Below, one piece after another: positions 3,561 to 26,177 of a stretch of DNA of 26,177 nucleotides; positions within the stretch are counted from its first letter, which is position 1, and each line of letters begins with the position of its first letter. The position numbers were made by a program, and so were the translations under genes. The stretch spans positions 1 through 26,177 of the IMG/VR virus record IMGVR_UViG_3300047462_000348. One strand, 5' to 3'. The notes beneath the pieces are model-generated. The model was not told the origin of the DNA and made no database searches. It saw nothing but the letters and a program-made list of their open reading frames with translations. Source of the DNA: a virus.

Positions 3561-3617
3561 TATTACATCCTATGTGGACTTTAGGGACACAGATCTGACC
3601 TACTTATCCGTTTTAGT

Positions 3618-3625
3618 TATTTATA
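3618..3625 (-). promoter_or_regulatory. T4-type late promoter box TATAAATA
   Basis: A perfect TATAAATA on the minus strand, 58 bases before the ATG at 3560, in the divergent intergenic region. It would drive the two leftward fibre genes. It is placed back to back with a CATAAATA box on the other strand. Confidence 0.75.
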
Positions 3626-3658
3626 AGGTATGAATGCGAGTGGCGGGTAAAGACATTC

Positions 3659-3666
3659 CATAAATA
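3659..3666 (+). promoter_or_regulatory. Probable late promoter box CATAAATA (rightward)
   Basis: CATAAATA, one base from the late consensus, lies 36 bases upstream of the ATG at 3702 on the plus strand. It would drive the rightward cluster 3702-6000. The same one-base variant is seen on the minus strand at 15197 and 24995. Confidence 0.55.
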
Positions 3667-3701
3667 CTTCCTATATTCATCATTTTAACGGAATCTAAAA
3701 C

Positions 3702-4798: not shown

Positions 4799-4799
4799 A

Positions 4800-5327: not shown

Positions 5328-5349
5328 TAGGTATTCAAAAGGATAAACC

Positions 5350-6000
5350 ATGGCTGACGAAATCGTTTCAATTAACAATCTCAAAGAAAATACTTTTAAA
5401 TTTGAACTCTCTGTTAAGGGTTTAAACGAAGAGAATTTTGATGCAAAGTTTGTTATTCATTCTACCGATATGGAGTTAGCATTTCCTTGTAAGAAGGATA
5501 CTGATGGTAAGTGGTCCGTAACAGTTCCACCTCTTCCTATGTTAGAACGTACAATGTATCCATTCCATCTACAGGTTGTTGCAGAAGGTTTTCAATTTCG
5601 TCCTTTGAAAGGTTCAGTTAATATTGTTGGTTCACCAGAAGTTTATGCAAGTGGTATGAAAAATACCAAACTTGAAAACCCAACAAAGGTAGTTGAAACT
5701 TCAAAAACAAAGCCTCAACCAACAAAAAGTCGTGAGAAGCCAGTTGAGCAAATTGCTCGTGAATTGATGGAAGCAAATAAGGCTTCCACAAAGAAGACAA
5801 AGGTGCTTACTGAAACAGTAAAGCCAGCGAAGAGAACAGAACCTGTAAAGGAATCTCTACTTCCTAAAATTGATGTTGAACCAAAGCCAGCAAAACCAGA
5901 TACGTCTGCAAAGGATGAAGCTGCTCGTAAAGTTCTTGAAGATTTAGGATTTAACACAAAAATATCAAAGCCAAGTAAGCGATTCTCGCTAAAAGATTAA
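5350..6000 (+). CDS. Phage head-assembly-type protein, tentative
   Basis: 216 residues, ATG at 5350 behind AGGATAAACC. The N-terminal ~95 residues form a beta-rich domain (TFKFELSVKGLNEENFDAKF, PCKKDTDGKWSVTVPPLP, YPFHLQVVAEGFQFRPLKG). This resembles a T4-like marine phage family that I recall being labelled a head vertex assembly chaperone. That match is from memory and uncertain. Residues 105-200 are a disordered Lys/Pro/Glu/Thr-rich linker with a short helix (EKPVEQIARELMEANKAS). The end (DEAARKVLEDLGFNTKISKP, then KRFSLKD) is a short conserved-looking tail. It is the last gene of the rightward cluster and is followed by a stem-loop. Confidence 0.7.
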   Translation: MADEIVSINNLKENTFKFELSVKGLNEENFDAKFVIHSTDMELAFPCKKDTDGKWSVTVPPLPMLERTMYPFHLQVVAEGFQFRPLKGSVNIVGSPEVYASGMKNTKLENPTKVVETSKTKPQPTKSREKPVEQIARELMEANKASTKKTKVLTETVKPAKRTEPVKESLLPKIDVEPKPAKPDTSAKDEAARKVLEDLGFNTKISKPSKRFSLKD

Positions 6001-6029
6001 CCTTACTAAACGATTTAAGTTTCGTAAGG
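6001..6029. terminator. Stem-loop between convergent gene clusters
   Basis: CCTTACTAAAC and GTTTCGTAAGG pair as a ten-pair stem with one internal mismatch around a GATTTAA loop, directly after the stop of the rightward cluster and 14 bases before the end of the leftward cluster. There is no clear U-run, so termination is inferred from position between converging genes. A small GATAT/ATATC palindrome follows immediately. Confidence 0.5.
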
Positions 6030-6042
6030 ATATACGATATCT

Positions 6043-6603
6043 TTAACGAACAACTCTTTCGTTCTTAAGTTCTTGCATAACACGCAATAAATGCTTGCAC
6101 AATCCAGGTCTATGAGTTGGATTACGTGGAGCACGTTGTGTCTTTGGTGTATATGGCTTTGGTGGTTCACCATAGAGACTATTATCGCTTTGATTCCACT
6201 TTGAGAACGTGAAATAAAAGTCCAAACACGTGCAACGAACTTCTGCATTGTTTTTTGCAAGTTGAATTGGTACCATATGTGCTTCTTGTTTGTCGGGTCC
6301 CATAAATGAAACGTTGTCAGGACGATCCTGATCTTCAAATATTACACCATCAAACATAATTGTTGAATCGTATGCATTTGGTCCACTTTGTACCTTTGCT
6401 TCAACTTTAAGTTGTCCATTATCGCGTTGTCCACGCATAGGAATAAGCTGCATACTTTTAATTTGAATAGGTGCAACAACGTGCTGACGACGTTCTGATG
6501 GTGGTTGGAAACCTTGCGTATTTTGATTAAGCGCAGCTAAAGTAGCTTCTTGAAGCTGTTCATCAATACGTTTTCCACGGATAAATTTTGGTAATGAATT
6601 CAT
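6043..6603 (-). CDS. SWIM-like CxC...CxH zinc-binding phage protein
   Basis: 186 residues from ATG 6603, nine bases after the HD-Pnk stop. The N-terminal half is beta-rich (APIQIKSMQLIPMRGQRDNG, QLKVEAKVQSG, STIMFDGVIFED). The C-terminal half holds C124-x-C126 (VRCTCLDFYFTFSKWN) and, 42 residues later, C169-x-H171 (GLCKHLLRVMQEL). This is the CxC...CxH order of SWIM zinc fingers, which bind DNA or proteins. The Pro/Lys-rich stretch between the pairs (GEPPKPYTPKTQRAPRNP) is typical of a small phage family I have seen but cannot name. Coupling downstream of HD-Pnk suggests co-expression. Function is unknown. Zinc binding is inferred from the residues only. Confidence 0.75.
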   Translation of the reverse strand: MNSLPKFIRGKRIDEQLQEATLAALNQNTQGFQPPSERRQHVVAPIQIKSMQLIPMRGQRDNGQLKVEAKVQSGPNAYDSTIMFDGVIFEDQDRPDNVSFMGPDKQEAHMVPIQLAKNNAEVRCTCLDFYFTFSKWNQSDNSLYGEPPKPYTPKTQRAPRNPTHRPGLCKHLLRVMQELKNERVVR

Positions 6604-7942: not shown

Positions 7943-9034
7943 TTAAATGAATGGCATTGGGGCATCTTCATCGCTATTTTCGTTGTATTCGATGTTCTCA
8001 TTTTCCCACTGGGTAAATCCTGTAGTTGAATAGAGTTTATCAAATGCATTTTGATCATAGGTTGCAATTTCTTCAATTAAGCGAATAACTGTAAGCGTAG
8101 CTGCAATACAATCTGAAGTGCTACCAGGAAGATGGTCATATGCACCTTTTGTACGTACAAATGTCTTAAGTTCTTGCAATAGGATTGGAGATGTGATGTG
8201 AATGTTATCCTTTTCAAACATTTCCTTGAAGTTAACGCAAGCCTTCATCTTTGAACGTGCAGTTGTAAAGAATCCTCTCTTTCCCTTTCCTTCTTCAGAA
8301 ACAAATTCAGAATTTGTAGGAGAATTTTCATCTGCTTCAAACAATGAAATAATACCTTCACCAACACCATTGTTTTCAACAGAGAAGTAAACCATCGTTC
8401 CTTTGTTCTCGAGGAAGATAAGGATGTTCTTAAGCACTTTATAAGAGTCGTTTGGAGACATTGTATTTGAACGAAATTCTGCAACCTGTCTCATAGATGG
8501 AAAATGATAAACAGTAATAACTGTGAAATCTTTTCCTGTACCTGTAGCAGGATCAACTCCAACCAAATATGTACCACCTGGCTTAATATCGTACCAGAAA
8601 ACAACTTCATCAATTACATACATTGGTTGAATACGAGATAGACGTTGTGTAACTTCTGCAAGCTTTAGAGAGTTAACCAACAATGCTTCTGATGATAAAA
8701 AATCACAGTTATGCGAAACAATATTATTTGTAATATATTGGTGTCCACCATCTACTTCTACAGCATCATAAAAATTATCTATTTTATCAATCAATTTTAA
8801 ATCTACAATAACACTTTCTTTGTCACTTTCAACAATAGTCATTCCAACTGTTAAATCTTTACATAGTATAAATCCTTCAGTAGTCAATACTTGATGGTTT
8901 GTAGTACATTGTAATACGATTCCTGAATCAGTATTGATTTGAAGACTTATTGGATGCGATGACTGTTTTATACCAGAAAATGGTTGAAATCCTGTAGGAG
9001 TCAATATTTCAAATTTTGTATTTTGTTTAAACAT
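7943..9034 (-). CDS. terL: Large terminase C-terminal part with C-half of split intein
   Basis: Preferred start is ATG 9034, inside the last codons of the HNH gene (ATGTTTAA overlap), with GGAC just upstream. Residues 1-109 are the C-half of a split intein ending in VSHN. C110 begins the terminase extein (CDFLSSEALLVNS), which continues the QEYE end of the first ORF. The RNase H-like nuclease domain follows: GVDPATG (D161), YFSVENNG (E220) and SDCIAA (D308) are the expected acidic residues of the T4 gp17 nuclease that cuts concatemers. The C-terminus is acidic. After trans-splicing it would supply 254 of about 519 terminase residues. A longer reading frame to 9148 exists, but its first 38 residues are antisense-like overlap with the HNH gene. 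Without splicing it lacks the ATPase. Confidence 0.9.
   Translation of the reverse strand: MFKQNTKFEILTPTGFQPFSGIKQSSHPISLQINTDSGIVLQCTTNHQVLTTEGFILCKDLTVGMTIVESDKESVIVDLKLIDKIDNFYDAVEVDGGHQYITNNIVSHNCDFLSSEALLVNSLKLAEVTQRLSRIQPMYVIDEVVFWYDIKPGGTYLVGVDPATGTGKDFTVITVYHFPSMRQVAEFRSNTMSPNDSYKVLKNILIFLENKGTMVYFSVENNGVGEGIISLFEADENSPTNSEFVSEEGKGKRGFFTTARSKMKACVNFKEMFEKDNIHITSPILLQELKTFVRTKGAYDHLPGSTSDCIAATLTVIRLIEEIATYDQNAFDKLYSTTGFTQWENENIEYNENSDEDAPMPFI
8708..9034 (-). other. C-half of atypically split TerL intein (109 aa)
   Basis: The segment starts MFKQNTKFEILTPTGFQPFS, has a block B T-x-x-H at residues 44-47 (CTTNHQVLT), and ends with block F/G HQYITNNIVSHN before Cys +1. Starting before block B means the break lies right after block A. 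That is the layout of the AceL-TerL split intein, whose C-half I recall starting MFRTNT and ending YITNGVVSHN. The partner N-half ends the upstream ORF at 9599-9688. Confidence 0.9.
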
Positions 9035-9599
9035 CTGTCCAAGATTTCCGTGTAATGATGTTATGAATTGTGTTTGTGCAAACAATTGGATAGTTGGATC
9101 TTTTAATTTGTTTAGAGGCAAACCATTCATATGAAGGTTTGGGTCCACCTTTCTTAGAATTTATAACTTCAAAATATTCTTTATGATAGTTGGTTGTCCG
9201 GTATAAAGTTCTGATATTAATAATGTCCGGCAGTTTTAAAGTAGAACTGTGTCGCTTTCCTTTACGATTACATTTTAGTTGATACCCCGTAACGCCCTTG
9301 TTCCAAGGTATTCTTCCCCTTTTTGCACCACCAACACCAGGTCGTTTTTTGCCTTTTTGAATTGTTGATACATAGTCCGTAGGTAGATTCATTCTTTTTG
9401 CTATCAATACACAAGCACCCCAATCACCTCGTGTAAAATGTTCATCAAAATGTTGCTTTATAGTAACCAACTTTAAGTTGTCTATGTTATTATTTTTATG
9501 ATTTCCATCAATATGGTGGATTTCCATAGTTCTACCTTCCTCATCTAATGGAATAGGTCCGTTGTGTGTTATCCAAGTTTTTCTGTGTAATGATGTCAT
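9027..9599 (-). CDS. HNH homing endonuclease between split-intein halves
   Basis: 190 residues. The start overlaps the stop of the terminase N-part (ATGA) and its stop overlaps the start of the C-part (ATGTTTAA), so all three ORFs look translationally coupled. The HNH core is near the N-terminus (EIHHIDGNHKNNNIDNLKLV). RGRIPWNKGVTG resembles a NUMOD3 DNA-binding repeat. The last 70 residues (LPDIINIRTLYRTTNY, then TNTIHNIITRKSWTDV) look like the helix-turn-helix modules at the end of phage homing enzymes. It presumably promotes spread of the split-intein allele by cutting terminase genes that lack it. This position, between the halves of a fractured gene, has precedents with another nuclease family. 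The target site is not known. Confidence 0.9.
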   Translation of the reverse strand: MTSLHRKTWITHNGPIPLDEEGRTMEIHHIDGNHKNNNIDNLKLVTIKQHFDEHFTRGDWGACVLIAKRMNLPTDYVSTIQKGKKRPGVGGAKRGRIPWNKGVTGYQLKCNRKGKRHSSTLKLPDIINIRTLYRTTNYHKEYFEVINSKKGGPKPSYEWFASKQIKRSNYPIVCTNTIHNIITRKSWTDV

Positions 9600-11572
9600 A
9601 ACTGTTTATACAACTCTTCTATAGTTAGGCGTTGGATTTCCCCGGTTTCGGTGTCTCTTATAGTAATTAAAGTAGTTCCATGAACGCATTCGTATTCTTG
9701 CTTCCACTTTTGTTCACCAATACGACCAATTGTCTCTTCTTTAAATCTACCATCACGACCAGGTGGCTCATCCCACTTGACTTCAATAGGAAAGAAACCA
9801 TTTGCCTTAACAGCTGCACCTCTCCAAATTTGTGCAAAGATATCGATATCTCCGTTTGGTGTAGATGTCATAATACAATCACCACCAGTAGACAATGTAG
9901 GTTCAATAGATGTCCAGAATTCCTCCTGGATGTTCTTTGCTACGTGCGCAAATTCGTCCAAGTACAATAGCGAAATGGACAAACCTCTACCAGAATTTTC
10001 AGAAGTAGCTTCGGAAATGATACGAGTACCATTATCGAAACCAACGCTGTGTTTATTCCATCCATCGTCCTTAATACCAGGCTTTAGCCACATAGGTAAG
10101 TTTTCATATCCAAGTCGGATACGATGAATCATTTCCATAGCGTTGCTATTCTTGTTAGATGCAATAAGAACTGTCTTATCTTTATGAAATGTTGCATACC
10201 AAAGAAGATATGCACCTGAAGTTACACTATTGTGAGTTACTGTAAAATTATCAGTAATGTATAAATGATCAGGGTGATCAATTAATATACACGATGCTTC
10301 TTCTTGCCGAACAAGTTGGATATTAACAATGGTTCTTTTTGGTTCTGTTTCACTATTACGACCCCACGTATCGTGACATAAATCCTTTTTTCGTTGTAAA
10401 CGGAAGCACGACTTAGGATTTGGTAAGGAAATAAATACATCAAAAGATATTTTATGATTTGGGTTTTGTGGCAAATGTTCATAGAATGAACACTTACCAC
10501 CAAGACTACGAACAAGATAGAGAACATCATCTCGTAACTTGGGACTTGTTGTACAATAAGAAATTGTAGTGTTGGTTGGTGATTTTTTACTACAAGTTCC
10601 ATCCGTATCCATTAATCCTTGAAGCAAAGCAAGTCTTTGTTCGTGCGAAGCGTGTTTATAGATTTCAGGAATAAACTTGGTATCACTTACTGTTCCGTGA
10701 AGTTTAAGTGAACGAAGGATATTAAGCAATTTATTGTTTGATCCTGTATTGATTTTCTTTGAAAGTCTATAATCAATATTATTGCCACCAAGTACTGGTA
10801 TAACATTAATATCGAGTGGTAATAATTTTTCTTTTAACTCTTCAACGAGTTGTTCGTCCATAGATGTAAAAGTTATCCCTTTTGATATACTTCCATCACC
10901 AAGCAATAACCCCAATACGTAAGGGTCTAATGGTAGGTCCTTTTTATTAAAATTTACCCGAGTTACCAACGGAATACGAACGTTGTAGTTTTTTGCGTTT
11001 TTTCGAAGTAACTGATTATTACGATATTCAATAATTTCACGAAGTGTTAAGGTTTGACGTTGAACCTTCAATGTTCCACCATAGGTTGTATCAACCCATT
11101 TATTGCGAATGTCCACCGTCCACAAATGATCTATCCCACTTTCAGCAAATGAACCATCATCAAAAGTTATTTTATAAATATCTTTTATTCCTTGAGGAAA
11201 TTTATCTATTACTTTAGCACTTTTTCCATCGGGAGTTAAAATTTCATCTCCAATAAAAACTTTTCCCATTGTTGTATACCCAGTAGGCGTATAAATTTGT
11301 GCAGAATGTGGTTGTTCTTTCCCTGTTTGACGAGCCGACAGTACCACTGTAAAACGATTTGATTGGTATCCACGCAACATTCTTTCTTGATATGGACGTA
11401 GACGGAATGGAACAATACCACGTGTAGGATGCTGAATCTTTACGTACTTATCGATAAAGTATACAGGATCAAGTTTACATTTACGAAGTTCTGCTAACTG
11501 TTCGTAAGTGTATTCGTGTTGGACGTTAGGTCCTTTTATATTCGGGTTTTTATTTCGGGGTATGGCTGCCAA
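9596..11572 (-). CDS. terL: Large terminase N-terminal ATPase part with two inteins
   Basis: 658 residues as translated. Extein 1 is residues 1-85 (YFIDKYVKIQHPTRGIVPFR, then LSARQTGK). A LAGLIDADG intein occupies 86-448. Extein 2 is 449-628 (SVTSGAYLLWYATF onward), and residues 629-658 are the N-half of a split intein before the TGA. Joined exteins restore Walker A (ARQTGKSV). Walker B is LLYLDEF (D539, E540) and the coupling motif is IMTSTPNG (567-574), as in T4 gp17. This protein powers DNA packaging at the portal. The start codon is a TTG at 11572 placed one base after GGAGGA, which is too close. No in-frame ATG exists nearby, and an ATG at 11580 opens a 14-codon out-of-frame ORF, so the true initiation is uncertain. 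The downstream HNH gene overlaps by four bases. Confidence 0.92.
   Translation of the reverse strand: MAAIPRNKNPNIKGPNVQHEYTYEQLAELRKCKLDPVYFIDKYVKIQHPTRGIVPFRLRPYQERMLRGYQSNRFTVVLSARQTGKEQPHSAQIYTPTGYTTMGKVFIGDEILTPDGKSAKVIDKFPQGIKDIYKITFDDGSFAESGIDHLWTVDIRNKWVDTTYGGTLKVQRQTLTLREIIEYRNNQLLRKNAKNYNVRIPLVTRVNFNKKDLPLDPYVLGLLLGDGSISKGITFTSMDEQLVEELKEKLLPLDINVIPVLGGNNIDYRLSKKINTGSNNKLLNILRSLKLHGTVSDTKFIPEIYKHASHEQRLALLQGLMDTDGTCSKKSPTNTTISYCTTSPKLRDDVLYLVRSLGGKCSFYEHLPQNPNHKISFDVFISLPNPKSCFRLQRKKDLCHDTWGRNSETEPKRTIVNIQLVRQEEASCILIDHPDHLYITDNFTVTHNSVTSGAYLLWYATFHKDKTVLIASNKNSNAMEMIHRIRLGYENLPMWLKPGIKDDGWNKHSVGFDNGTRIISEATSENSGRGLSISLLYLDEFAHVAKNIQEEFWTSIEPTLSTGGDCIMTSTPNGDIDIFAQIWRGAAVKANGFFPIEVKWDEPPGRDGRFKEETIGRIGEQKWKQEYECVHGTTLITIRDTETGEIQRLTIEELYKQL
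9599..9688 (-). other. N-half of atypically split TerL intein (30 aa)
   Basis: Thirty residues begin with Cys after the extein QEYE: CVHGTTLITIRDTETGEIQR followed by LTIEELYKQL and a stop. They hold only intein block A, giving an unusually short N-half. The AceL-TerL N-half that I recall (CVYGDTMVETEDGK, then IEDLYKRLA, 25 aa) is clearly similar. Cys1 would do the first acyl shift, so this is a class 1 intein. Confidence 0.9.
10229..11317 (-). mobile_element. Class 3-like intein with LAGLIDADG endonuclease in Walker A
   Basis: A 363-residue insertion between K85 and S449 of the terminase Walker A. Block A aligns as EQPHSAQIYTPTGYTTMGKV with Gly at position 13, making residue 1 a Glu (GAA) instead of Cys, Ser or Ala. 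Class 3 inteins lack the first nucleophile and use a Trp/Cys/Thr set: W151 (IDHLW, block B), C428 (ASCILID, block F) and T446 (TVTHN, block G) are all present. It ends His-Asn before Ser +1. Two LAGLIDADG motifs lie between: VLGLLLGDG (D226) and LQGLMDTDG (D324), so it probably encodes an active homing endonuclease. A phage origin has been proposed for class 3 inteins. The splice sites are inferred from alignment to the family. Confidence 0.88.
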
Positions 11573-12754: not shown

Positions 12755-13224
12755 TTGAATTGGGTATTCTCGTTAATAAGTCTAAACTTCATCCCGTATT
12801 TAGTACAAAATTCTGTGGCAGCCTTCCACTTTGCAATGTTAATTGCGTACGTTATTTGTTCATAAAGTTGTTGCTTCTGCCTCTTACCAACTAACGTTGG
12901 TTGGACCATTTGCGTAGAAGGTTTAATCTCAATCACTTCTTGAATTATTTCCCCATTTTTGTCTACGTATTCAAACCAAAAATCGGGGTAATAGGAATGA
13001 ATTTTTTTGTCTGTAGGCTTAATGTAGGGAATGGAAAATGGTTCTGATGACCAACGAAGTACTCTTGTGTTATTATCTAAGAACTTCATAAAGTCAAGTT
13101 CCCAAGATGAACGAAAGACAATCTTATCCTTTTCCTTTCCTTGCTTATGCTTTGCTGTATTACCAGGAACGTACTTTTTGGGATGGCGAGGATTATAATA
13201 TCCTTTACTAAAACCCTTAGCCAT
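12751..13224 (-). CDS. gp4: Head completion nuclease gp4
   Basis: 157 residues, about the length of T4 gp4 (150). The start overlaps the previous stop as TAATG. The family signature FRSSWELDFMKFLD...VLRWSSEPFSIPYI is unmistakable. Its PD-(D/E)XK residues are visible as E42, D81 (YYPDFWFEYV) and E99-I-K101 (IEIKP), so the TnsA-like catalytic set is intact. The N-terminus is basic (KGYYNPRHPKKYV). gp4 acts at head completion, allowing packaged heads to accept tails, and probably trims or protects DNA ends. It is followed by the small terminase gene with a four-base overlap. Confidence 0.92.
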   Translation of the reverse strand: MAKGFSKGYYNPRHPKKYVPGNTAKHKQGKEKDKIVFRSSWELDFMKFLDNNTRVLRWSSEPFSIPYIKPTDKKIHSYYPDFWFEYVDKNGEIIQEVIEIKPSTQMVQPTLVGKRQKQQLYEQITYAINIAKWKAATEFCTKYGMKFRLINENTQFK

Positions 13225-15170
13225 TACGAGCTCCCAGACGTACCACCAGTGCTATTCAATGGATTTGATCCAGGAGTTGGATTTGTTATTGATCCTGATG
13301 TTATATTGCTTGTATTCTTTATGTTTGCTGTTGCATTAGCTGCAGTTTGTTGAGCAGCAGCTAATTGTTCAGGTGTTGTAGCAGCAGCTGTAGAGGTTGA
13401 TAGTTGTGATTGAACAGCTGTGTTTTGTTGCTCTGCATTGGTTGAAACATTTGAAAGAGTTGTTGCAGTGTTAGCACTTGTAGGTGTTGTTCCTGTAATT
13501 GGATCTATCGATGCAGTTGTGCTTGTAGTTAGAGACGAAGGATCTGTAGTACTATTTGTAGAAGGTGGCAACGTTGGTATATTACTTGCATTTTGATCAA
13601 CAAACGATGGAGGATCGTTAAGTCCACTAATATTTGTTTGCACACCATAACTTGCACCACTACCAAGTGTTGGGTTAATAGAATCGTTTCGTATTGTTAG
13701 GTTTGAACCATTTATACTTGTTGTAGTTGATATAGTACCAGTATTTGTATTAAGTTCAGTTTGTAATACACTTTTATCTGCACTAAGTGTTGTGTTTGCA
13801 GAAGCCAATCCAAATCCATCTTTTTGATTCCAATTTTGAATGCTCGTAGTTGGATCTGCACCAAGTGGAAACAACCCATCGCTTGTCATATCGTGTAAGT
13901 TGTACGAAGAAGGAGCATTTGGATTAAAAATTTGAAAACCAGGTATTACATACAAACTATCATAACTAAATGTAAGTGAAACTTCTGCTCCTTCACTTGA
14001 AGCCATATCAAGTTCATCCAATTCCATTTTTGTAATTTTTGGATTGAAAAAATGGTACTGATTCATTAATGTACCTTGACGGTATACGTGAAAAATTGAA
14101 ATACGACGAAGGACGTTTGTTGTGCTATTTGTACCAAATGTTCCTAGAGAAGCTGAATACAATTTGCCAGTTGTAGGAGAGTTCCACGAAGCATTGATAG
14201 GCGCAGAACTACCTTCAAATCCCATACCACCACCTGCAAGGTCATATAATTGCAATGGATCCATTTGAACGCTGTGAGGATTTAAATTAGCAATTGGGCT
14301 TATTAATTTCAAATATGCGTTGTAAAATTGAACAGCATTATTTCTATCATCGTCCAAAAACTTCATTGTAATTGGTTCGTACGTTGTTCTAGCTGGAACT
14401 TTTGTTCTAAAGTTATACATATTAACTTCTTGGTATTCAAACTCTACAGCTGGACGAGTTGTAGACTTAATAACAAACGCTGGATCAATCCTTCCTCCTG
14501 ATCTTCCTAGAATATTGTTGAAGGCTGGATCAAATTCAAAATCAACAACAAACAAAAATTTATACTTTGGTGCAAGCTTAATTAAGTCAGTTGCATAATT
14601 TCCAACACCGCAAGTTTGTCCAAATTGTGAATTGTTTGGAGATGCTGCTGATGGTCCAGTAAACAATGATGATATTAATGCAGCACCATTTTGGAATGCA
14701 GAAAACACAGCAGGGATATCGTTTGGTGTAAACTTACCTTGACTAACACTATTGTAAACTTGTGAAGCAGCACCCAATGCATTATTTGCAATGCTTGGAT
14801 TGAATTGTCCGGCAGTATTCAATTGCTGGGAGTTAATACCAAGTGTATTTAAAACGTACGATTGACCATTACCAATGGCAGATTGTGGAAGTTGAGACAT
14901 ACCACCAATACGAACAGCATTGGAAACTCCAGCAAGTGTTGATAACCCAGCACCAACTGCACCACCACCAACTCCTGCTGCAAGATTAGCAAAACTACCT
15001 ACAAGTCCAATCGTGGAAGAAAGTCCTAAACTTGCTGATTGAATTGCTGTTTGTTGTCTTTGTAGAACACTTGGGCAACCTACAGCATGTGGAACACCAA
15101 ATACGGCTGGATTTTGGTTTAGAATTGTTCCTGCAAAGTTAAACAGGTTTAGACGTGGATCGCTTGCCAT
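13224..15170 (-). CDS. Baseplate tail-tube-fold protein (gp48/gp54-like)
   Basis: 648 residues, with ATG 15170 eight bases after AAGGA. Residues 1-195 are Ala/Gly/Asn-rich and hydrophobic (SLGLSSTIGLVGSFANLAAG), likely an extended or helical N-terminal arm. Residues of about 200-430 contain a tail-tube-type domain: KYKFLFVVDFEFDP, STTRPAVEFEYQEVNMYNFR, ARTTYEPITMKFLDDDRNN and AVQFYNAYLKLIS. This is the pattern of T4 gp48/gp54, which cap and initiate the tube on the baseplate. The last ~130 residues are a Ser/Thr/Asn/Gln-rich low-complexity tail. It is longer than T4 gp48 or gp54. I cannot decide between tube cap and initiator. It has its own CATAAATA box 27 bases upstream, directly after a terminator. 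Confidence 0.75.
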   Translation of the reverse strand: MASDPRLNLFNFAGTILNQNPAVFGVPHAVGCPSVLQRQQTAIQSASLGLSSTIGLVGSFANLAAGVGGGAVGAGLSTLAGVSNAVRIGGMSQLPQSAIGNGQSYVLNTLGINSQQLNTAGQFNPSIANNALGAASQVYNSVSQGKFTPNDIPAVFSAFQNGAALISSLFTGPSAASPNNSQFGQTCGVGNYATDLIKLAPKYKFLFVVDFEFDPAFNNILGRSGGRIDPAFVIKSTTRPAVEFEYQEVNMYNFRTKVPARTTYEPITMKFLDDDRNNAVQFYNAYLKLISPIANLNPHSVQMDPLQLYDLAGGGMGFEGSSAPINASWNSPTTGKLYSASLGTFGTNSTTNVLRRISIFHVYRQGTLMNQYHFFNPKITKMELDELDMASSEGAEVSLTFSYDSLYVIPGFQIFNPNAPSSYNLHDMTSDGLFPLGADPTTSIQNWNQKDGFGLASANTTLSADKSVLQTELNTNTGTISTTTSINGSNLTIRNDSINPTLGSGASYGVQTNISGLNDPPSFVDQNASNIPTLPPSTNSTTDPSSLTTSTTASIDPITGTTPTSANTATTLSNVSTNAEQQNTAVQSQLSTSTAAATTPEQLAAAQQTAANATANIKNTSNITSGSITNPTPGSNPLNSTGGTSGSS

Positions 15171-15273: not shown

Positions 15274-15900
15274 TTACGATCCGCCGTTATCCACTGAACC
15301 AGTTGGAATACGACCGGCGCCGCCCAATGCTGAACCTGGACCTGTTGTGTAGGTACCAATTGTCTGGAAGGCGTGATCAAAACGCATGCTGATGTTAATC
15401 TTAACAGCTTCTGATGCAGAGTAATCCAATGAATCATATGCTACGTTCTTCAACCAGCAACCTTCCATTGTCCATGTTTCAAGAACCTGCTCATTACCAT
15501 CCAACATATCCAAGTATGTTACAAACTTGTACAAAGAACCTTCTGGTGCAGTTGCCAACCATGGACCTTGTGTACCAATCAAATACTGTTGAGCTTGAAG
15601 TTGGTTTGTTAAAACTTGTGAAGCAGTTGTGGTGATATCGTCTTCTACTGTCAACTTCATTTCTTCCCATGAATGCTTTGCTGCAATCCATGCGCGTGAG
15701 TTATAACGATTCAATGGAACTTCTTCAAATGAAAGAGTTGGACGATCCATTGTAATGACCTGCATGCTTAATGGCTGTGCATCAGAATTTGTACCTGGAC
15801 CACCAAGACCTGCAAACGTTGCTCTCCAACGGTTCTTTAGTTTTGGTTGTAGAATACCTGTACCTACGCCAGGAATACCGATATCATTAATATTTGCCAT
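15274..15900 (-). CDS. gp19: Tail tube protein gp19
   Basis: 208 residues (T4 gp19 is 163), ATG 15900 behind AGGATGG. Recognisable tube features are NRWRATFAGLGGPG, MDRPTLSFEEVPLNRYNSRA, AAKHSWEEMKLTVEDDIT, YKFVTYLDMLDGNEQVLETW and GCWLKNVAYDSLDYSASEAV followed by KINISMRFDHA. Six of these rings' strands stack to form the DNA conduit inside the sheath. The extra length is in the loops and in a Gly/Ser/Thr-rich C-terminal tail (TGPGSALGGAGRIPTGSVDN). It follows the sheath gene by 33 bases and is closed by a strong terminator, as expected for a highly expressed pair. Confidence 0.93.
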   Translation of the reverse strand: MANINDIGIPGVGTGILQPKLKNRWRATFAGLGGPGTNSDAQPLSMQVITMDRPTLSFEEVPLNRYNSRAWIAAKHSWEEMKLTVEDDITTTASQVLTNQLQAQQYLIGTQGPWLATAPEGSLYKFVTYLDMLDGNEQVLETWTMEGCWLKNVAYDSLDYSASEAVKINISMRFDHAFQTIGTYTTGPGSALGGAGRIPTGSVDNGGS

Positions 15901-18187: not shown

Positions 18188-19006
18188 TTACGGCTTATCG
18201 ATGTCTATATCGCTCAATGTAAATAAGTCAATATATTCAGCATTCTCCAAATCCAATGCCTGAATAATGCTTTCGGAGTTACTGAAATCAGTTGCAGTAG
18301 GAACAACAGAAAGGCGAACCTTAATATTCTGAATGTAGTTCTCTCTGAAATTTGCAGGTCCTTGGAGATATACAATTACTTCAAAATTAAGGACCGCTTG
18401 AATGATGCGACGATCAGCGCCAGCAGGAAAGTTTACGTTGTCTTGAATACTTGTAAGTTCAGCAGTTGTAATTTGTGCCCAATCCATAGGGTCATCACTT
18501 GTTTGAAACTGAACACTTGGATCAAACAAAATTAAGATCTGTTCCATAATTTGATCGTACTGAAGCTGGTTGCTTGCAAATATACTTAACTCGTATATAA
18601 CACGATATGGAATAGGCATAAGTTGACGAACGACACCAACATTCTCTGGAAATGGTTGTCCATTATTACGTGCTACAGTTTGACGACGAGTTCCACCAAT
18701 GCCTTTTTTCTTATCAGGTGCTTGAGCAATACTTCGTCTAAAAACGCTCATCGCTGGTAAACGTAATGGTTTGTTTTGTGTTTGTTCACTCTTAATCCAA
18801 GCAACAACACGGTCTCTACTTCCGTAGATAACAGGAACACGAATCAATCGAGGTGGAAGACCTGCACTAACTCCAACTCTAACTCTCAATTCTGAAAATA
18901 ATGCCATAAATTGAATAGCATATCTTTTGAATTGTTCGTTGAAGTAATAATCATCTTCTTCACAATGTACAATTGTATCTGGAGAAGTTTGAGGAGGCAG
19001 TGTCAT
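18188..19006 (-). CDS. gp15: Tail sheath stabiliser gp15
   Basis: 272 residues, the same length as T4 gp15. ATG 19006 overlaps the gp14-like stop (ATGA). Matching segments are YFNEQFKRYAIQFMALFSEL, PRLIRVPVIYGSRDRVVAWI, PIPYRVIYELSIFASNQ and QIMEQILILFDPSVQFQ, all in the T4 order. gp15 forms the hexameric ring on top of the finished tail that joins the neck. Its position between gp14 and gp18 genes fits T4-like order. Confidence 0.92.
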   Translation of the reverse strand: MTLPPQTSPDTIVHCEEDDYYFNEQFKRYAIQFMALFSELRVRVGVSAGLPPRLIRVPVIYGSRDRVVAWIKSEQTQNKPLRLPAMSVFRRSIAQAPDKKKGIGGTRRQTVARNNGQPFPENVGVVRQLMPIPYRVIYELSIFASNQLQYDQIMEQILILFDPSVQFQTSDDPMDWAQITTAELTSIQDNVNFPAGADRRIIQAVLNFEVIVYLQGPANFRENYIQNIKVRLSVVPTATDFSNSESIIQALDLENAEYIDLFTLSDIDIDKP

Positions 19007-20787
19007 GTTGTTCCTGGTTGTGGATCACAGTGTGTTATTGGTTCTTTTAACATAGCATTTCCCGGAACTTTTCCTGATGAGTGGATAAATTCCTTCAATG
19101 TTGGCTTACGTGGGTTATATAGTTCTCTCCAATCTGTTTCCAAAAATACCCATTGAGCCTTTGCTGTAGAGTATCTATACAAACGAGCAGGAATACCTTC
19201 AGACGCACCAACATAGATTAATCTGTGATAAGCCTTATCTTTAGGATTCGTTGGAAATATTGGTCCTTCAGTAAATGGTGCATTGTTAGGTGGCATTGCA
19301 TCTTCGCCATATGTTGCTGTTTTGTTTAACTGAATTCTCTTTAGTAGTTCTGGATCAAGTCCTTGAGCCTTTGCGTTAGCAAGTTGCTCTTCAGAAAATT
19401 CCTGGATATATCCCGAGGTTTCACGACCATTTTCTGGTACGTTATCTAGTGCATTTGTTTTAATAAATGTTGCAATATCGGAGAAGTCTTGGAAGTTTGG
19501 ATTGCGACCATTTCCTTGAGTTTGTAAACCAAGTCCATTTGGTGTAACTGGTTGCTCTGATAGATCACCAAAAATATCTTGTGTTTCTTCTGATGCGTAT
19601 GCAGGTTGTGCAGTTACTTTAAGTAGCAAAGGAACCCACGTTGGTGTATATCCATTTGCACTCCACGTTACGTCTGTTACTTCAACCCACTTGTAAACTG
19701 GAGTCATACGAGCTGAATATTGTGTTTCACTTGGTAAGCGAATAATATCACCAATAACAAGCGGACGACCTAAAATTGCAACACACGAAGTAAAACTGAT
19801 TTGTAGATTGTAAATTAGTGATGGTAGTTCAATACCAAAACGTGAAAGTTCGGTTTGCACTTCTAACAAATCATAATAGCCTTTCATTAAGTATGGATCT
19901 GTATCGTATTGACGATCTCTGTTCTCCATAAGAATTTTATCTTGGATATTACTAATGTCTGTCGCTTCGTAGTTATGAAATAATTGTAGAGCTTGAACAC
20001 TCCAATACCCTGTACCTAAAGAACCAGTTCCAGTTGTTGAAGGAGTTATTGGATCACAAACACTTCCTGTACCACCATTAAATTGTGTTGGACGAAGTCT
20101 CCAAAATCTTGCTGGTGCAGATCTCTTCATTAAAATTGTGTTGAAGTTATCATCATCTGGTAGCGTTGCAAGTCCTGCTCCATACCATTTACAGTTGTCG
20201 TTTGAATATTCCAAACGAACTTGTGTGCAACGATTTACTTGGTTAGCTGATTGCTTAATTGCAAATGCGGTAATGTGTTTATGGATCGCTGTATCAATTC
20301 CATACATTCTTCGTGTTTGGTCAATTGTCTTAATATCACCAAAATCATACCCTAGATATGATGATGCAAGGACATCTGCTCCTACCTGAAGCGAATGCCA
20401 TTCTGATACGTATGTCTCAAATGCATTTGAAGGTGGATATCCCTGTGCAGAACCGCCGGAAATTGGTTGTCCATGTCCAGTTGCGTCTACCAACTTACAT
20501 TGTTCGTGGACACCAAGGAGCTTGTATACGTAAACGTCAGCACCCCCAATATTCAACGATTCAGTTAATAGGGAATCCTGTACACAGGCATCATTGTTGT
20601 TTACAAGTTGAAATGCATATGCAGTTAAATCAGTAGTCGTAGGTGGGCATTCCAACGTAAGACCTGGACGCCACTGAACGTACGAAGCAGTTGAATTTGC
20701 TGTCGAGGTTGGTGTATTAAATTCAGGTCCAGTTGTTGAACCATTTAATGCATTTGGATCTGGGCAATTTGGATTATTGCTTGCCAT
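19003..20787 (-). CDS. gp14: Neck protein gp14-like with discoidin-like domain
   Basis: 594 residues, more than twice T4 gp14 (256). Residues of about 275-405 look like the neck core (QDKILMENRDRQYDTDPYLM, LLEVQTELSRFGIELPSLIY, LGRPLVIGDIIRLPSETQYS, VYKWVEVTDVTWSANG). A conserved C-terminal module follows near 525-575 (AYHRLIYVGASEGIPARLYR, QWVFLETDWRELYNP). Residues of about 80-272 look like an F5/8 type C (discoidin) fold: SNAFETYVSEWHSLQ, SSYLGYDFGDIKTI, VRLEYSNDNCKWYG, ARFWRLRPTQF and WSVQALQLF. That fold commonly binds sugars. The gp14 assignment rests on order beside gp13 and gp15 and on the core motifs. The discoidin call is by motif pattern. It overlaps the upstream gene by 14 bases. 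Confidence 0.75.
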   Translation of the reverse strand: MASNNPNCPDPNALNGSTTGPEFNTPTSTANSTASYVQWRPGLTLECPPTTTDLTAYAFQLVNNNDACVQDSLLTESLNIGGADVYVYKLLGVHEQCKLVDATGHGQPISGGSAQGYPPSNAFETYVSEWHSLQVGADVLASSYLGYDFGDIKTIDQTRRMYGIDTAIHKHITAFAIKQSANQVNRCTQVRLEYSNDNCKWYGAGLATLPDDDNFNTILMKRSAPARFWRLRPTQFNGGTGSVCDPITPSTTGTGSLGTGYWSVQALQLFHNYEATDISNIQDKILMENRDRQYDTDPYLMKGYYDLLEVQTELSRFGIELPSLIYNLQISFTSCVAILGRPLVIGDIIRLPSETQYSARMTPVYKWVEVTDVTWSANGYTPTWVPLLLKVTAQPAYASEETQDIFGDLSEQPVTPNGLGLQTQGNGRNPNFQDFSDIATFIKTNALDNVPENGRETSGYIQEFSEEQLANAKAQGLDPELLKRIQLNKTATYGEDAMPPNNAPFTEGPIFPTNPKDKAYHRLIYVGASEGIPARLYRYSTAKAQWVFLETDWRELYNPRKPTLKEFIHSSGKVPGNAMLKEPITHCDPQPGTT

Positions 20788-21118
20788 GTTGTCTCTCCGA
20801 CCACTTCTTAAACGAAAGAGGAATGTTTGATGCCATTTTCATTTTACGAACACGTGAATAGTAATCAGGAATTTCGCTTAAATGATCCTTTGCAATTCTC
20901 TTTGCAATCTTTTCATCTCCCGTATGTTCCATCTCGTCTTCTATTCCCATACCAAGTTCGTTTGGATCGTAGTGGTGATCTGTCGTATCATTATGCTTAC
21001 CAACTGTAATTTTCTTTCCCTTGTATTCAACTTCTTCCTCTTCGCTCTCACACTTGCAGACATGTAATCCGCAAATTGGGCAAATCATTTCTAGAAGTTT
21101 AATGTTAAATAGTTTCAT
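20774..21118 (-). CDS. Small Cys-cluster protein, DUF5661-like
   Basis: 114 residues, ATG 21118 behind AGGAATTAATAA. Near the N-terminus a knuckle-like Cys/His cluster (MICPICGLHVCKCES: C13, C16, H19, C21, C23) suggests zinc binding. Then comes an acidic run, and in the C-terminal half DPNELGMGIEDEMEHTGDEK, IAKRIAKDHLSEIPDYYSRV and RKMK. This half resembles the DUF5661 family of small phage and plasmid proteins, recalled from memory. Its function is unknown. It lies between the two neck genes and overlaps both the upstream 39-residue ORF and the downstream gp14-like gene. Confidence 0.75.
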   Translation of the reverse strand: MKLFNIKLLEMICPICGLHVCKCESEEEEVEYKGKKITVGKHNDTTDHHYDPNELGMGIEDEMEHTGDEKIAKRIAKDHLSEIPDYYSRVRKMKMASNIPLSFKKWSERQHGKQ

Positions 21119-21224
21119 TTATTAATTCCTGTATTTGCGTTAGAACTTCTGGTTTGTTTTTAAAACACTCTGTTCTACCATCAAATACATAGAACGGAGC
21201 ATTTGATAGATTAAATGTAAACAT
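21105..21224 (-). CDS. Very small ORF (39 aa) between neck genes
   Basis: ATG 21224 overlaps the TGA of the 1250-residue neck protein as TGATG, and the frame ends 14 bases inside the next gene. The product begins MFTFNLSNAPFYVFDGRTEC and ends FKNKPEVLTQIQELINETI. The clean overlaps at both ends, with no spare bases between genes, favour a real coupled gene. The second half looks helical. No family recognised. Confidence 0.5.
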   Translation of the reverse strand: MFTFNLSNAPFYVFDGRTECFKNKPEVLTQIQELINETI

Positions 21225-24200
21225 CAGCCGATAGTGAAGCTACCATAAGCTCCATAGCTTTCAACATCCTGTACAACCAACTCATCAAGATCATCACTTA
21301 ATTGTTCACGAATATCTTTAGCTTGTGTTCTTAAGTCTTGAGCATTTAATGTTACGCTTCCACTTGCACCTGGCAAGTTTGCATACTTACCACGAATCTG
21401 TGCCAAAATATCCATTGCTTCTGCAACAGCAAATTGTTGAATCCAACGTTTTGCGTATCTATCCAAGAAAATCTCTTGTTCAGTCTTTTCGAGTGTTACG
21501 TCAAGCAAAATACGTTCTGGGCGAGTAAATGATTGGTGGAAGGAGATTTTTCTCTTGCTCTCATCCCATACAAATGTTAAGCGAGTTGCAAACAATATTT
21601 CCAACTGTTCAACATATTGTGAAACAATGTGGTAGCTTAATAGGTCAAACGTACCCATGTTATATAAGTGCTGTAAAACAACCTGTCCGTAGACACCTGA
21701 TCCCATTGCTTGTGATAGGAATGCAGATGTAAAGCGGTAGCCAGCTGTAACAGAAACAATCTTATTGTAATCAACTGCCTTGTTAGACAACGTATAATGT
21801 TGATTATATGGCTGAATATCCAAGAAGAAGCAAGCACGCTTAACAGCCATAGAACTTCTTTGACGAAATTCTTCTAACGCATTTTGTACGCAACGATTTA
21901 ATTGGTCGTCTGTTAGTTCAACCGTAACGGTTGGATAACCAAGTTGTGTACGAATAATCTTCATAATGTTGCGACGTTCATCTGGTGAACCATCTGTACC
22001 AACACCAAGCTCATCGTACGATGGTGTTCCACTTACGCCATCTTGACCACCTGATGGAATCAAAACGTTTGCAATTGGTTTTAGGTTTGACCATAGGAAT
22101 GCTTGTGGTGCAATTGGAATTGCACGATATGGAATTGGTGCTATTCCACCAGTACCCGAGAATCCTACCCAACAATCAATATCATCATAACCATTACCAA
22201 GATTTCCACTAAAATCACCAAAGTAATCAAGTCCGGAAATAATGCCACCATATGCATACGGAACTGCAAACAAGTTTGAACTACCAGCAATGCTTCCATA
22301 TGGATATACTTCATTTGGACTGCAGCCATCATTAACATAATCAGCAGTACCAGTACCATAGGTAATCAATCCACTTGCCATATATCCAATACCATTTGGA
22401 ATTGGAATCATTACAACATAATTACTACCAAGTCCTGTTGTCTCAAATACTAGATTACCTTGTTGATCAAATCTGCAATAAACAACTGGTTTAATCCATA
22501 TCCACTGCGTGCCATTCCACTGATAGAGTTTGCTGTTTGTTGTGTTATACCAGTTTTGTCCTTTCTTCAAAGAAGGAGGAGTTGAAGTGTATGGAACATT
22601 TGTCCAACTGGAACCATTCCAAACATTTAACGTATTGTTTGAAGTATTGAACCATAGTTGTCCAATTGGTAATTGGTTAGGTGGTGTGTTAGAAGAAACA
22701 GGTGAGATTTGATTCCACGAAGCAGCAGTTGGAGTTCCCCAAATATACCAAAGTCCGGTTGTTGTATTATGCCATACAGTTCCGTTGGTTGGTTCTGATG
22801 GATCCGTTGGTGAAGTGATTGGTGAAACTGTTTCCCAATTGCTTCCATTCCACATCTGAAGAGTCATTGTGGTTGGATTGTACCAAAATGTACCAGTTGC
22901 AACTGTTGGTGTTCCATATGGATCAGTTGCCTGATCATAATATGGTGAAACTGGATCCCAAGTCATATGTACAACATCCCATTGATTTAAAACACCTGGT
23001 GAAGATGCAGTATCATTAAACCATAGACTGCATGAAGCAATATCTGTTGGATCAGTTGGCCATACAAGAACTGGAACTGTTGTCCATGCTGTGTTGCTAT
23101 TGCGAACAGAAAGAACTTCCGTTGTTGGATCATACCACAACGTGCCTGCCACAGCATTTGTTGAAACAAGTGCTGGATCAGTTGTTGAATTAATAAATGG
23201 TTGAACATCCCACGTTGTTAAATTTGTATCACGAACATAGAGGACGCTATTAGTTAAATCAAACCAATAAGCACCTGAAGCAATTGCATTTGGTGCTTGA
23301 GGCCATGTTACAGCATACGTTTGAACCCACTGACCATTGGAGTATGTGTAGAGAGTTGAGTTTGCTGTATCATACCAAAATGCACAACTTGTAGGTGTAG
23401 CAGGGCAAGCTGGATCAGTCGTAGAAGTAATTGTTGTATCTTCGCACCAGGTATTACCGCAACGTGTATATGTGTTTGTTCCATTAAACCAGTATGTACC
23501 TGGTCCTGGATTAGTAGGATCTGTTGGATCCGAGATAACATTACTTACAGGAACCCACGATGTTCCATTCCATTGGGATAGAACATTCGTAGTTGGATTA
23601 TACCAGTATGTGCCAACAGGAACTTGAGAAGGATCTGTTGGTTGTACAATAACAGGTGTTGTATTTGGAACAGTTGTATATGATGTTCCATTCCATTGAG
23701 ATAAAATTCCTGTAGATGGATTGTACCAATAAGATCCAGTTGTTGGACCAGTAGGTGCTGTTGTTGAAGTAACAACAGTATTCGAGGCTGCAACAAATGC
23801 AGTTCCATTCCAAACTGTTAAAGTAGCGGTTGATGGATTATACCAAAACGCTCCAATTGTGGTAGTTGTTGGTTGAGTTGTTTGAACAAAAGTATTTGGA
23901 ACTGTTGTCCAAGTTGTTCCATTCCATTGTAAGAATGAGCCAGCAATTGGATTATACCAAAATGTTCCAATAGAAGGTGGTGCTGGTTGTGTAGTTGATA
24001 CTGTTGTATTAGGAACTGCAACAAATGCAGTACCATTCCACTGTGTTAATGTATTTGTTAACGGATTGAACCAATACTCTCCAATTGTTGGGTTTGTTGG
24101 TTGAGTTGTTTGACTTACAATTCCCTGAACAGGAACCAAAGTTGTGCCATTCCATACAGATAATCCTGTGCCATTCCAATAGTAAATTCCAGCGCCTGGT

Positions 24201-24976
24201 GTTGTTGGAGATACAAACGTTCCATTACCACTTTGGATAGCAATTTGTTTGTTAATTTCCTTAACCATATCACCATATGTTTGAGCGATACCACCATCAA
24301 AAGAGATCAACATACTCTTAACAGTATTCTTTCCGTGTGGATATCCACGATCATAAATTAACTGAAATTGATATATTGCACCAGCAACTAAGTTAGTTGC
24401 ATCTGAAGGTAGAGCACCTGCCTTCATTGTGTTTGGATTAAACGATAGTAATATCGTTTGATTTGCAGGAGTACCTGGTTGATCAGGACGTCCCAAACGA
24501 TCAGAATATGCACGAGAGCCATTCTTATCATAACGGCGTTGTGCATCCATTGCATAACCACAGATGTAATAATTTTGTGTTAGGTCAAGATCGCTTATAA
24601 CAACAGAAGTTGTTGGAGTTCCACTGTTTGCAATTACATCTGGTTGATAGATGTATGCAATAACACGAGCACCACCAATCCTATCTCCCGAAAATTTATC
24701 TGGGTCAAAAGTTGCATCAGGAGTAAATGTCAATCCATCTCTTGGGATATTATGTCCAGTAACTGGTTTGTCTGAAACAACAATAACCATACCAGCATAT
24801 GCAATATTTCCTGTGCTACCTGAAGCAACAGCATCAGAAACAGGAACATTCCAAGAGATTGTCCCTTGCCCTGCGGCTGGAACACCTGGAGAAAACGTTA
24901 AGGTTATTTGAAGAGCTTCAGAGGATAATTGCCCTGGAACATCACCAACATTGTCAAATATGCCCAAGATAGACAC
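21224..24976 (-). CDS. gp13: Giant neck protein: gp13-like C-terminus with Trp-rich repeats
   Basis: 1250 residues, four times T4 gp13 (309). Residues of about 20-145 look like a fibronectin type III-like beta-sandwich (ALQITLTFSPG, GTISWNVPVSD, VVISDLDLTQNYYICGYAMD). From about 265 to 828 there are 14 repeats of 37-44 residues with the pattern G-x-x-W-Y/F-N-P-x-T...L-x-x-W-N-G-T-x-W-x-x-V, their WY/WF pairs near 302, 340, 379, 417, 458, 496, 534, 571, 614, 652, 698, 735, 775 and 809. A Gly/Tyr-rich linker follows. Residues of about 1000-1240 match T4-like gp13 (RRNIMKIIRTQLGYPTVTVE, QNALEEFRQR, DRYAKRWIQQFAVAEAMDIL, GSVTLNAQDLRTQAKDI). gp13 with gp14 seals the head after packaging. Start is uncertain: the GTG at 24976 abuts AGGA, while a TTG at 24967 has AGGAG eight bases upstream. 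Confidence 0.85.
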   Translation of the reverse strand: MSILGIFDNVGDVPGQLSSEALQITLTFSPGVPAAGQGTISWNVPVSDAVASGSTGNIAYAGMVIVVSDKPVTGHNIPRDGLTFTPDATFDPDKFSGDRIGGARVIAYIYQPDVIANSGTPTTSVVISDLDLTQNYYICGYAMDAQRRYDKNGSRAYSDRLGRPDQPGTPANQTILLSFNPNTMKAGALPSDATNLVAGAIYQFQLIYDRGYPHGKNTVKSMLISFDGGIAQTYGDMVKEINKQIAIQSGNGTFVSPTTPGAGIYYWNGTGLSVWNGTTLVPVQGIVSQTTQPTNPTIGEYWFNPLTNTLTQWNGTAFVAVPNTTVSTTQPAPPSIGTFWYNPIAGSFLQWNGTTWTTVPNTFVQTTQPTTTTIGAFWYNPSTATLTVWNGTAFVAASNTVVTSTTAPTGPTTGSYWYNPSTGILSQWNGTSYTTVPNTTPVIVQPTDPSQVPVGTYWYNPTTNVLSQWNGTSWVPVSNVISDPTDPTNPGPGTYWFNGTNTYTRCGNTWCEDTTITSTTDPACPATPTSCAFWYDTANSTLYTYSNGQWVQTYAVTWPQAPNAIASGAYWFDLTNSVLYVRDTNLTTWDVQPFINSTTDPALVSTNAVAGTLWYDPTTEVLSVRNSNTAWTTVPVLVWPTDPTDIASCSLWFNDTASSPGVLNQWDVVHMTWDPVSPYYDQATDPYGTPTVATGTFWYNPTTMTLQMWNGSNWETVSPITSPTDPSEPTNGTVWHNTTTGLWYIWGTPTAASWNQISPVSSNTPPNQLPIGQLWFNTSNNTLNVWNGSSWTNVPYTSTPPSLKKGQNWYNTTNSKLYQWNGTQWIWIKPVVYCRFDQQGNLVFETTGLGSNYVVMIPIPNGIGYMASGLITYGTGTADYVNDGCSPNEVYPYGSIAGSSNLFAVPYAYGGIISGLDYFGDFSGNLGNGYDDIDCWVGFSGTGGIAPIPYRAIPIAPQAFLWSNLKPIANVLIPSGGQDGVSGTPSYDELGVGTDGSPDERRNIMKIIRTQLGYPTVTVELTDDQLNRCVQNALEEFRQRSSMAVKRACFFLDIQPYNQHYTLSNKAVDYNKIVSVTAGYRFTSAFLSQAMGSGVYGQVVLQHLYNMGTFDLLSYHIVSQYVEQLEILFATRLTFVWDESKRKISFHQSFTRPERILLDVTLEKTEQEIFLDRYAKRWIQQFAVAEAMDILAQIRGKYANLPGASGSVTLNAQDLRTQAKDIREQLSDDLDELVVQDVESYGAYGSFTIG
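22540..24190 (-). repeat. Tandem repeat array encoding 14 Trp-rich modules
   Basis: On the plus strand the block GTTCCATTCCATTG or close variants recurs about every 110-125 bases (for example near 23680, 23920 and 24035), each encoding WNGT, with nearby GGATTATACCA encoding WYNP. Repeats near 23540-24190 are the most alike at DNA level. Those near 22900-23460 are more diverged, pointing to recent duplication at the N-terminal end of the array. Confidence 0.75.
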
Positions 24977-25003: not shown

Positions 25004-25345
25004 CTATGGGATTTGTTCCTCTGTTGTGTTGCGATTAAGCCACTTCATTAATTTTACACCATCCCAATACGTATTGAACTCATCATCTGGGAGGATTTCC
25101 TTAACACCTTCAAACGTAATGCTAACAATTGTAGGGTTATCAATATCTTCGTATAACCAATCCACAACAATTCTATGTGTAGGTTTTAATGCAACTTGAT
25201 CTTTGGAATCTTTGGATTCACCAACAATTAATTTGCAATATTTTCGCACATTATATGTTGCTGTACGTTGAGGAGTTTTTGATACTGCTTCACGTAATTT
25301 TTCTTTTGAGTCCAAATATTCTTTGAATGTTAGCTTAATCGTCAT
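25004..25345 (-). CDS. Small phage protein of unknown function
   Basis: 113 residues, ATG 25345 with GTGGAATTTTAA upstream. The start KLTFKEYLDSKEKLREAVSK is helical. The body is beta-rich (YCKLIVGESKDSKDQVALKP, THRIVVDWLYEDIDNPTIVS, ITFEGVKEILPDDEFNTYWD) and ends GVKLMKWLNRNT. I recall similar proteins beside neck genes in T4-like marine phages but know no function. There is no signal peptide or metal-binding motif. It is expressed leftward ahead of the giant neck gene, probably from the TCTAAATA box at 25400. Confidence 0.7.
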   Translation of the reverse strand: MTIKLTFKEYLDSKEKLREAVSKTPQRTATYNVRKYCKLIVGESKDSKDQVALKPTHRIVVDWLYEDIDNPTIVSITFEGVKEILPDDEFNTYWDGVKLMKWLNRNTTEEQIP

Positions 25346-25480: not shown

Positions 25481-26177
25481 TTAGAACATCTTTACAAATG
25501 TCAAAGCAGTTGTATTAAGGGTAACAGGTGCTACCATTTGAACAAATGCATGCTGACCATTTGTGGTGCCGTTTGCAACAAAGCAAGCTGCGCCAGGAAT
25601 TGTGCTATTATCTACACAATCAAATGCACGTTCTAGTACCCAAGGCGAAGTTGTTACTGTAGCTACTGGTACGGAGAATCCATGACCACCTGCATATCCA
25701 ATGATTGCTGAAGGAGCTGTTAGTACATCACCTACAGTATATCCTGTGCCTGGAGTTGTAACAGATACTGAAGATACTGTACCACCGCTAGCAACAACAA
25801 CTGTTCCTAATGCTCCTGTACCTGTACCACCAAGAAGTTCTACACCTGTGTAAGTACCAGGATTGTATCCTGTACCAGCTGTAACAGAACCCAATGTAGC
25901 GATTGAACCAATACCAGATGACCCAGTTGAGCCAACTGTGTTTACTACATACATGCCATTTTGGCTTGCTGCTACACCTGTTATCTTTTGAACGGCAATC
26001 GTAAATGATCCTACACCTGAAGATGTTGCTGAAAGTGAATCATTAACAGCATAACCTGAACCTGGATTTGTAACTGTTACTGCTGTTACCAAACCTGCAT
26101 TAACGGCAAGAGTTGCAACTGCACCAGTGCCTGAACCACCTGTAAGTGAAACGCCTGTAACGTTTCCGTTTGCGGCA
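25481..26177 (-). CDS. Gly-rich fibre-like protein, 5' end beyond window
   Basis: The leftward frame is open to the right edge, so only the C-terminal ~232 residues are seen. The TTG at 26092 is just an internal Leu. The visible part has repeated turns of the form VTNPGSGYAVND, VTAGTGYNPGTY, VTTPGTGYTVGDVLTA and LTGGSGTGA/LLGGTGTGA, a pattern common in phage fibre and baseplate-associated proteins. The end (SPWVLERAFDCVDNSTIPGA, then CFVANGTTNGQHAFVQM) resembles the small beta domain near the end of many tail fibre proteins, comparable with the NGIYVV/GAWTRSTD/GAAVYV segment of the gene at 1-2478. Followed by a strong terminator. A fibre or appendage role is inferred. Confidence 0.75.
   Translation of the reverse strand, partial: AANGNVTGVSLTGGSGTGAVATLAVNAGLVTAVTVTNPGSGYAVNDSLSATSSGVGSFTIAVQKITGVAASQNGMYVVNTVGSTGSSGIGSIATLGSVTAGTGYNPGTYTGVELLGGTGTGALGTVVVASGGTVSSVSVTTPGTGYTVGDVLTAPSAIIGYAGGHGFSVPVATVTTSPWVLERAFDCVDNSTIPGAACFVANGTTNGQHAFVQMVAPVTLNTTALTFVKMF

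Follow-up and report, generated by a model that had tools for sequence, protein, structure and literature searches.

The minus-strand gene at 21224..24976 of the window (the whole 26,177-nucleotide stretch of viral DNA analysed here, IMG/VR record IMGVR_UViG_3300047462_000348) encodes a 1,250-residue protein in which a gp13-type neck adaptor carries an N-terminal FN3-like domain and an array of Trp modules, and our survey shows that adaptor, FN3-like domain and ordered array form one protein that is conserved across a clade. We propose that it is a jumbo-myophage head-tail adaptor of the gp13 type with a genetically fused neck appendage, a collar or whiskers, and we regard this explanation as fairly probable. 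The proteins themselves were known from public databases, where they are annotated as "hypothetical protein" in XacN1 and RAS14 and left unannotated in CM1; what is new is a gp13 adaptor that, by our proposal, carries its neck appendage in the same chain. The literature that we searched, which took in few subscription papers, held no account of a neck adaptor with an N-terminal extension or of the fusion. The fusion accounts for the large "hypothetical protein" of XacN1-like phages.

Domain architecture and gene context

The open reading frame is single and unbroken and starts with GTG. Its residues 961-1235 match phrog_211, "head-tail adaptor Ad2" (E 1.6e-138; the PHROG 211 profile is 976 positions long). 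The PDB sequences matched by phmmer are T4 gp13 chains only (E 1.3e-5 at residues 998-1039), and a profile built from 17 relatives also finds T4 gp13 in the PDB (E 2.4e-12). The predicted model of residues 795-1250 has a mean pLDDT of 56, its core helices and strands lying mostly at 65-87, and displays the adaptor fold, a helix bundle with a swing domain. When this model, with its mean pLDDT of only 56, was searched with Foldseek, a comparison with T4 gp13 that the sequence-only reading had put forward as a check, T4 gp13 chain 9mkb ranked first (E 8.8e-12); in the VIA fold comparison T4 gp13 chains again came top (Z 13.6 and 13.4), followed by other tailed-phage adaptor proteins. Taking the PHROG, profile and predicted-fold matches together, we assign residues 961-1250 (21227..22096, minus strand) to a gp13-type adaptor, as had been suspected. 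Homology and fold show these C-terminal ~290 residues to be the part that would make up an adaptor ring lying between the portal and the neck. By analogy with T4, the ring of the window phage probably has 12 subunits; 12 x 15 = 180 modules would then surround the neck, which agrees with the earlier expectation of many modules there.

About 960 residues precede the adaptor. In the AF2 model of residues 1-860 (mean pLDDT 68, pTM 0.35), which does not give the packing of the modules in space, residues 22-162 (24491..24913, minus strand) adopt an FN3 beta-sandwich fold, with a VIA Z of 9.2 and an rmsd of 2.5 over 95 residues; the top VIA rows are FN3 or FN3-bearing chains, and Foldseek matches the domain to 6hyf with a probability of 1.00. 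The fold comparison thus bears out the N-terminal FN3-like domain that had been read from the sequence. The Pfam fn3 scan of the window protein gave no match, and the XacN1 copy scored below the cutoff (E 0.0076, 16.9 bits against 25), so we name the domain FN3-like only. Residues 163-256 (24209..24490, minus strand), which DSSP of the same model assigns with mixed confidence to beta strands and then a helix at 234-249, join this domain to the array.

The array consists of 15 Trp modules with a period of about 38 residues (residues 257-838; 22463..24208, minus strand; combined E 1.9e-105 in the window ORF), the module matches themselves covering residues 257-826. The consensus of the module core family is PTTPPCGTYWYDTTTNTLYQWDGTTWV, and each module is predicted to be a short three-stranded beta meander. 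The Trp array had been recognised from the letters alone, but with 14 repeats where we count 15. A poorly modelled linker follows (residues 839-960; 22097..22462, minus strand), which is longer than in most relatives. Of the ~1000 residues of beta-rich modules that had been placed before the adaptor, residues ~839-960 are linker and not beta modules.

A Pfam scan of the window protein at E up to 10 gave no match for the modules, be it to a ligand-binding or CBM family or to any other, and a fold search with the N-terminal model found nothing meaningful for the array. The ROS1/Sevenless propellers, the T5 tail tip and similar hits to that model had TM-scores of 0.05-0.1 and were set aside as repeat or beta noise, only the FN3 part being trusted; BFVD matches to Orpheovirus and tail-fibre proteins also had low TM-scores and were kept as leads only. 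A search of the other ORFs of the window gave no significant Trp module, and a module suspected at the C-terminal end of the gp14-position protein was not confirmed by that search.

Compared with the T4 order 13-14-15, gp13 and gp15 are confirmed and the middle protein is assigned by position alone. The gp15 tail-sheath stabiliser lies at 18188..19006 (minus strand; PF16724, E 1.3e-33), with tail sheath and tail tube downstream of it. The 594-aa protein in the gp14 position (19003..20787, minus strand; PHROG 11591) has a discoidin-like F5_F8_type_C match in Pfam below the cutoff (E 7.9e-4); nearly all array phages of our survey have it, at 516-632 aa, and a profile comparison did not support it as a homologue of T4 or cyanophage gp14. 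Between it and gp13, 20774-21118 (minus strand) encodes a 114-aa protein with a CxxC..CxC motif and no PHROG match. On the other side of gp13, a 113-aa protein with no family match (25004-25345, minus strand) is kept upstream of the array gp13 in two relatives, L079 and L111, and an open-ended ORF (25481-26176, minus strand) has GGxGTGA...GxGY repeats, like modules in cyanophage gp14, baseplate and fibre proteins.

Other features of the window are recorded here as observations in their own right. There are two tail-tube-like genes on the minus strand, one of normal size (15274-15900, 208 aa) and one of 648 aa (13224-15170), whose tube match at residues 200-406 is flanked by long extensions on both sides. 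The terminase large subunit is apparently split between 9596-11572 and 7943-9148 (both minus strand), with a 190-aa ORF (9027-9599) between them; the first part contains an embedded LAGLIDADG/homing-endonuclease region, possibly an intein, and the second corresponds to the C-terminal part of terminase. A 338-aa protein at 2544-3560 (minus strand) carries YadA head repeats (PF05658, E 4e-11) and is trimeric-adhesin-like.

Distribution of fused and plain adaptors

By tblastn, the full architecture is present in Stenotrophomonas phages CM1 and RAS14 (976 aa) and in Xanthomonas phage XacN1 (977 aa), at about 36% identity overall. Queried with the window protein alone, IMG/VR gave no matches; a first profile, with an alignment as query, found 21 loci, and a second profile found 396 relatives, the best 80 of which were read. 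Among 89 complete gp13 ORFs, in which some contigs occur twice, 81 are long (676-1253 aa), and exactly 11 modules were detected in 64 of the 89. Since the query behind this set contained the last module, the scan was repeated with profiles of gp13 only. With the array-clade profile all 57 complete ORFs were 957-1063 aa, and 11 modules were found in 32 of them, the rest having 8-10, partly through detection loss; with the plain-clade profile all 78 ORFs were 245-285 aa and had no modules. Both sets were drawn by similarity to their own query and show a clean split, not a census. This is the survey of gp13 length and repeat number that the sequence-only reading had called for, and the plain lengths, together with the 309 aa of plain T4 gp13, make its figure of about 300 residues for a normal neck ring protein a fair one.

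The plain sister clade comprises RaK2, PA5oct, 121Q, Atu_ph07 and their kin. In a tree of the gp13 domain the plain forms from jumbo phages make up one group (99/93), separate from the array forms; T4 and the cyanophages sit on very long branches, so that the array may have been either gained or lost. The distribution in these sequence sets indicates that a large clade of jumbo phages has the fusion as its fixed state, so the earlier word "unusual" is not supported if it is taken to mean a one-off. Two loci deserve separate mention. In L079, FN3 plus array (3117-5378) and gp13 (5505-6224) are in separate ORFs, the break falling in the linker; this locus lies inside the fused clade and may be a real split or a sequence error. 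L111 (JAGWGO010000060.1) is a 7.7-kb contig in a Thaumarchaeota MAG with a major capsid protein, a 113-aa gene and an array gp13, and could be either a phage binned there by mistake or a virus that belongs to this MAG.

The module array and its possible roles

The modules hold their places. When the modules of 44 non-redundant 11-module proteins were compared by index (20,812 comparisons), the best match in another phage was the same-index module in 73% of cases, against a chance value of 9%, and the mean score was 76.8 for the same index between phages versus 32.3 for different modules within one protein. We conclude that the divergence of the eleven modules is ancient and that each has been held in place since, and the absence of a DNA-level array in the gene by Tandem Repeats Finder likewise suggests that the modules are old at the DNA level. 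Position-specific modules of this kind speak for an old array of defined length rather than a freely expanding brush; conserved number, order and per-module identity fit a defined appendage better than the generic sticky brush first imagined. The conserved count of 11 and the module-specific sequences point to fixed contacts and a fixed length.

Against this background the window lineage shows an expansion. Its array runs as module 1, then about five copies that resemble module 2 of the ancestral array, and then modules 3-11. The copies are window modules 2-6 (23519..24100, minus strand): in the module comparison, ancestral index 2 gives the highest score for modules 2-5, and for module 6 the scores against index 2 and index 8 are almost the same. 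The near relative L012 has the same 15 modules. The more distant L111 keeps 11, and its modules 5 and 6 are separated by inserted GGxGTGA-type repeats; this motif recurs in the window ORF at 25481-26176 and in a cyanophage gp14. Both the insert and the module-2 copies are compatible with an exposed chain.

In the explanation that we favour, the N-terminal ~840 residues, that is, the FN3-like domain and 11, here 15, Trp modules, would hang from the ring via the linker. The arms may then form a collar or whiskers around the neck, their projection and surface exposure being suggested by analogy, and the fused arm would do the work of proteins that are separate elsewhere, such as the T4 fibritin bound by gp13 and the gp40 collar spikes of XM1. 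The probable function of the arm is contact with something outside the ring, either fibres or sheath of the phage itself, as is the case for fibritin, or glycans on the host surface. Display of spare modules, as in the window duplications and the L111 domain insertion, would be a secondary role.

The strongest rival has the chain wrapping the neck, the portal or the top of the sheath, where it would stiffen the point at which a very large head is joined on, and have no outside ligand. The fixed count and position-specific modules suit such a structural clamp, as does the invariant Trp of most modules, which resembles a core residue, and a precedent has been proposed in the collar of Agrobacterium phage Milano, which surrounds the neck as a sheath-like structure and crosslinks the tail sheath to neck 1 (PMC10491603). 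The array, however, evolves faster than gp13: between the window and L012, dN/dS comes to about 0.17-0.19 for the array as against 0.07 for gp13 (rough values, as dS > 1), which also indicates that the array is under purifying selection. Moreover, extra modules and an inserted domain are tolerated, which a tight clamp should not allow. We consider a clamp rather unlikely.

A further reading, which we hold to be unlikely, makes the neck ring a main host-contact organ: a dodecameric collar with 11-15 modules per subunit that would bind host polysaccharide and partly replace tail fibres. XacN1 had no tail fibres by microscopy and no recognised tail-fibre homologues (PMC5852040), so a host-contact role is worth testing, yet putative. 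It is very improbable that the extension serves assembly only, as a chaperone, scaffold or steric block that is cleaved off to leave a mature ring of plain gp13. A long, poorly modelled linker between extension and gp13 could be taken that way, as could the two separate ORFs of L079 with their break in the linker; against this, linker length differs widely, and L079, which falls within the fused clade, may owe its break to a sequencing error. An artefact, a frameshift or assembly error joining two genes, was suggested by nothing but the unusual size and is refuted by the recurrence of the fusion in three isolated phages (CM1, RAS14 and XacN1) and in independent contigs by the dozen, with about 80 complete ORFs from IMG/VR that show it, so that of the two findings that might have overturned the sequence-only reading, this one and a missing gp13 match, both were looked for and neither emerged.

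Comparison with known neck systems

One of the closest counterparts of the fused neck appendage that we propose is that of T4, whose gp13 is a dodecamer with a domain III that binds fibritin, so that twelve fibres adorn the neck as whiskers and collar (PMC12270204). The window protein resembles gp13 with fibritin (gpwac) in the adaptor fold, in the flanking order toward gp15 and, by our reading, in the fibres or arms borne by the gp13 ring. It differs in that the T4 appendage is a separate trimeric protein on gp13 domain III (PMC12270204), whereas here beta modules are fused to the gp13 N-terminus. A search for Fibritin_C (PF07921) that detects T4 found none in eight array-clade records of relatives, and the Pfam scan of the window protein, whose own genome is represented by a 26-kb fragment, contained no Fibritin_C. 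Since Fibritin_C is also missing from Synechococcus phage ACG-2014e, which has a plain gp13, its absence from these array-clade records is compatible with a fused replacement and not diagnostic. The gp14 of ACG-2014e is itself a neck protein with a GGxGTGA-type module insert, a motif that it shares with the L111 array insert, but the insert is in gp14 rather than gp13 and is small compared with the long array of the window.

Within the adaptor family, gp13/Ad2 of the RaK2/121Q/PA5oct/Atu_ph07 type (PHROG 211) is the nearest sister clade in the tree, yet none of the 78 ORFs surveyed from it has an FN3 domain or modules. XacN1 ORF268 and its RAS14 and CM1 homologues share FN3, modules and gp13 with the window protein and differ in having 11 modules rather than 15; these cultured phages offer material for studying the purpose of the neck appendage. 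Among the appendages of other phages, the collar spikes of Vibrio phage XM1 are fixed to the neck via an Ig-like domain (PMC10457771). Their gp40 is thus also a neck appendage with an Ig-like domain, but it is a trimeric protein in its own right, its C-terminus is tailspike-like, and it is not fused to the adaptor. The Milano collar is likewise a beta-rich decoration around the neck (PMC10491603), built from a separate protein in four disulfide-linked 15-mer rings, whereas the window array is part of the adaptor chain. The neck appendages compared here, T4 fibritin, the XM1 spikes and the Milano collar, are all separate proteins, and the fusion would represent another way to decorate the head-tail junction.
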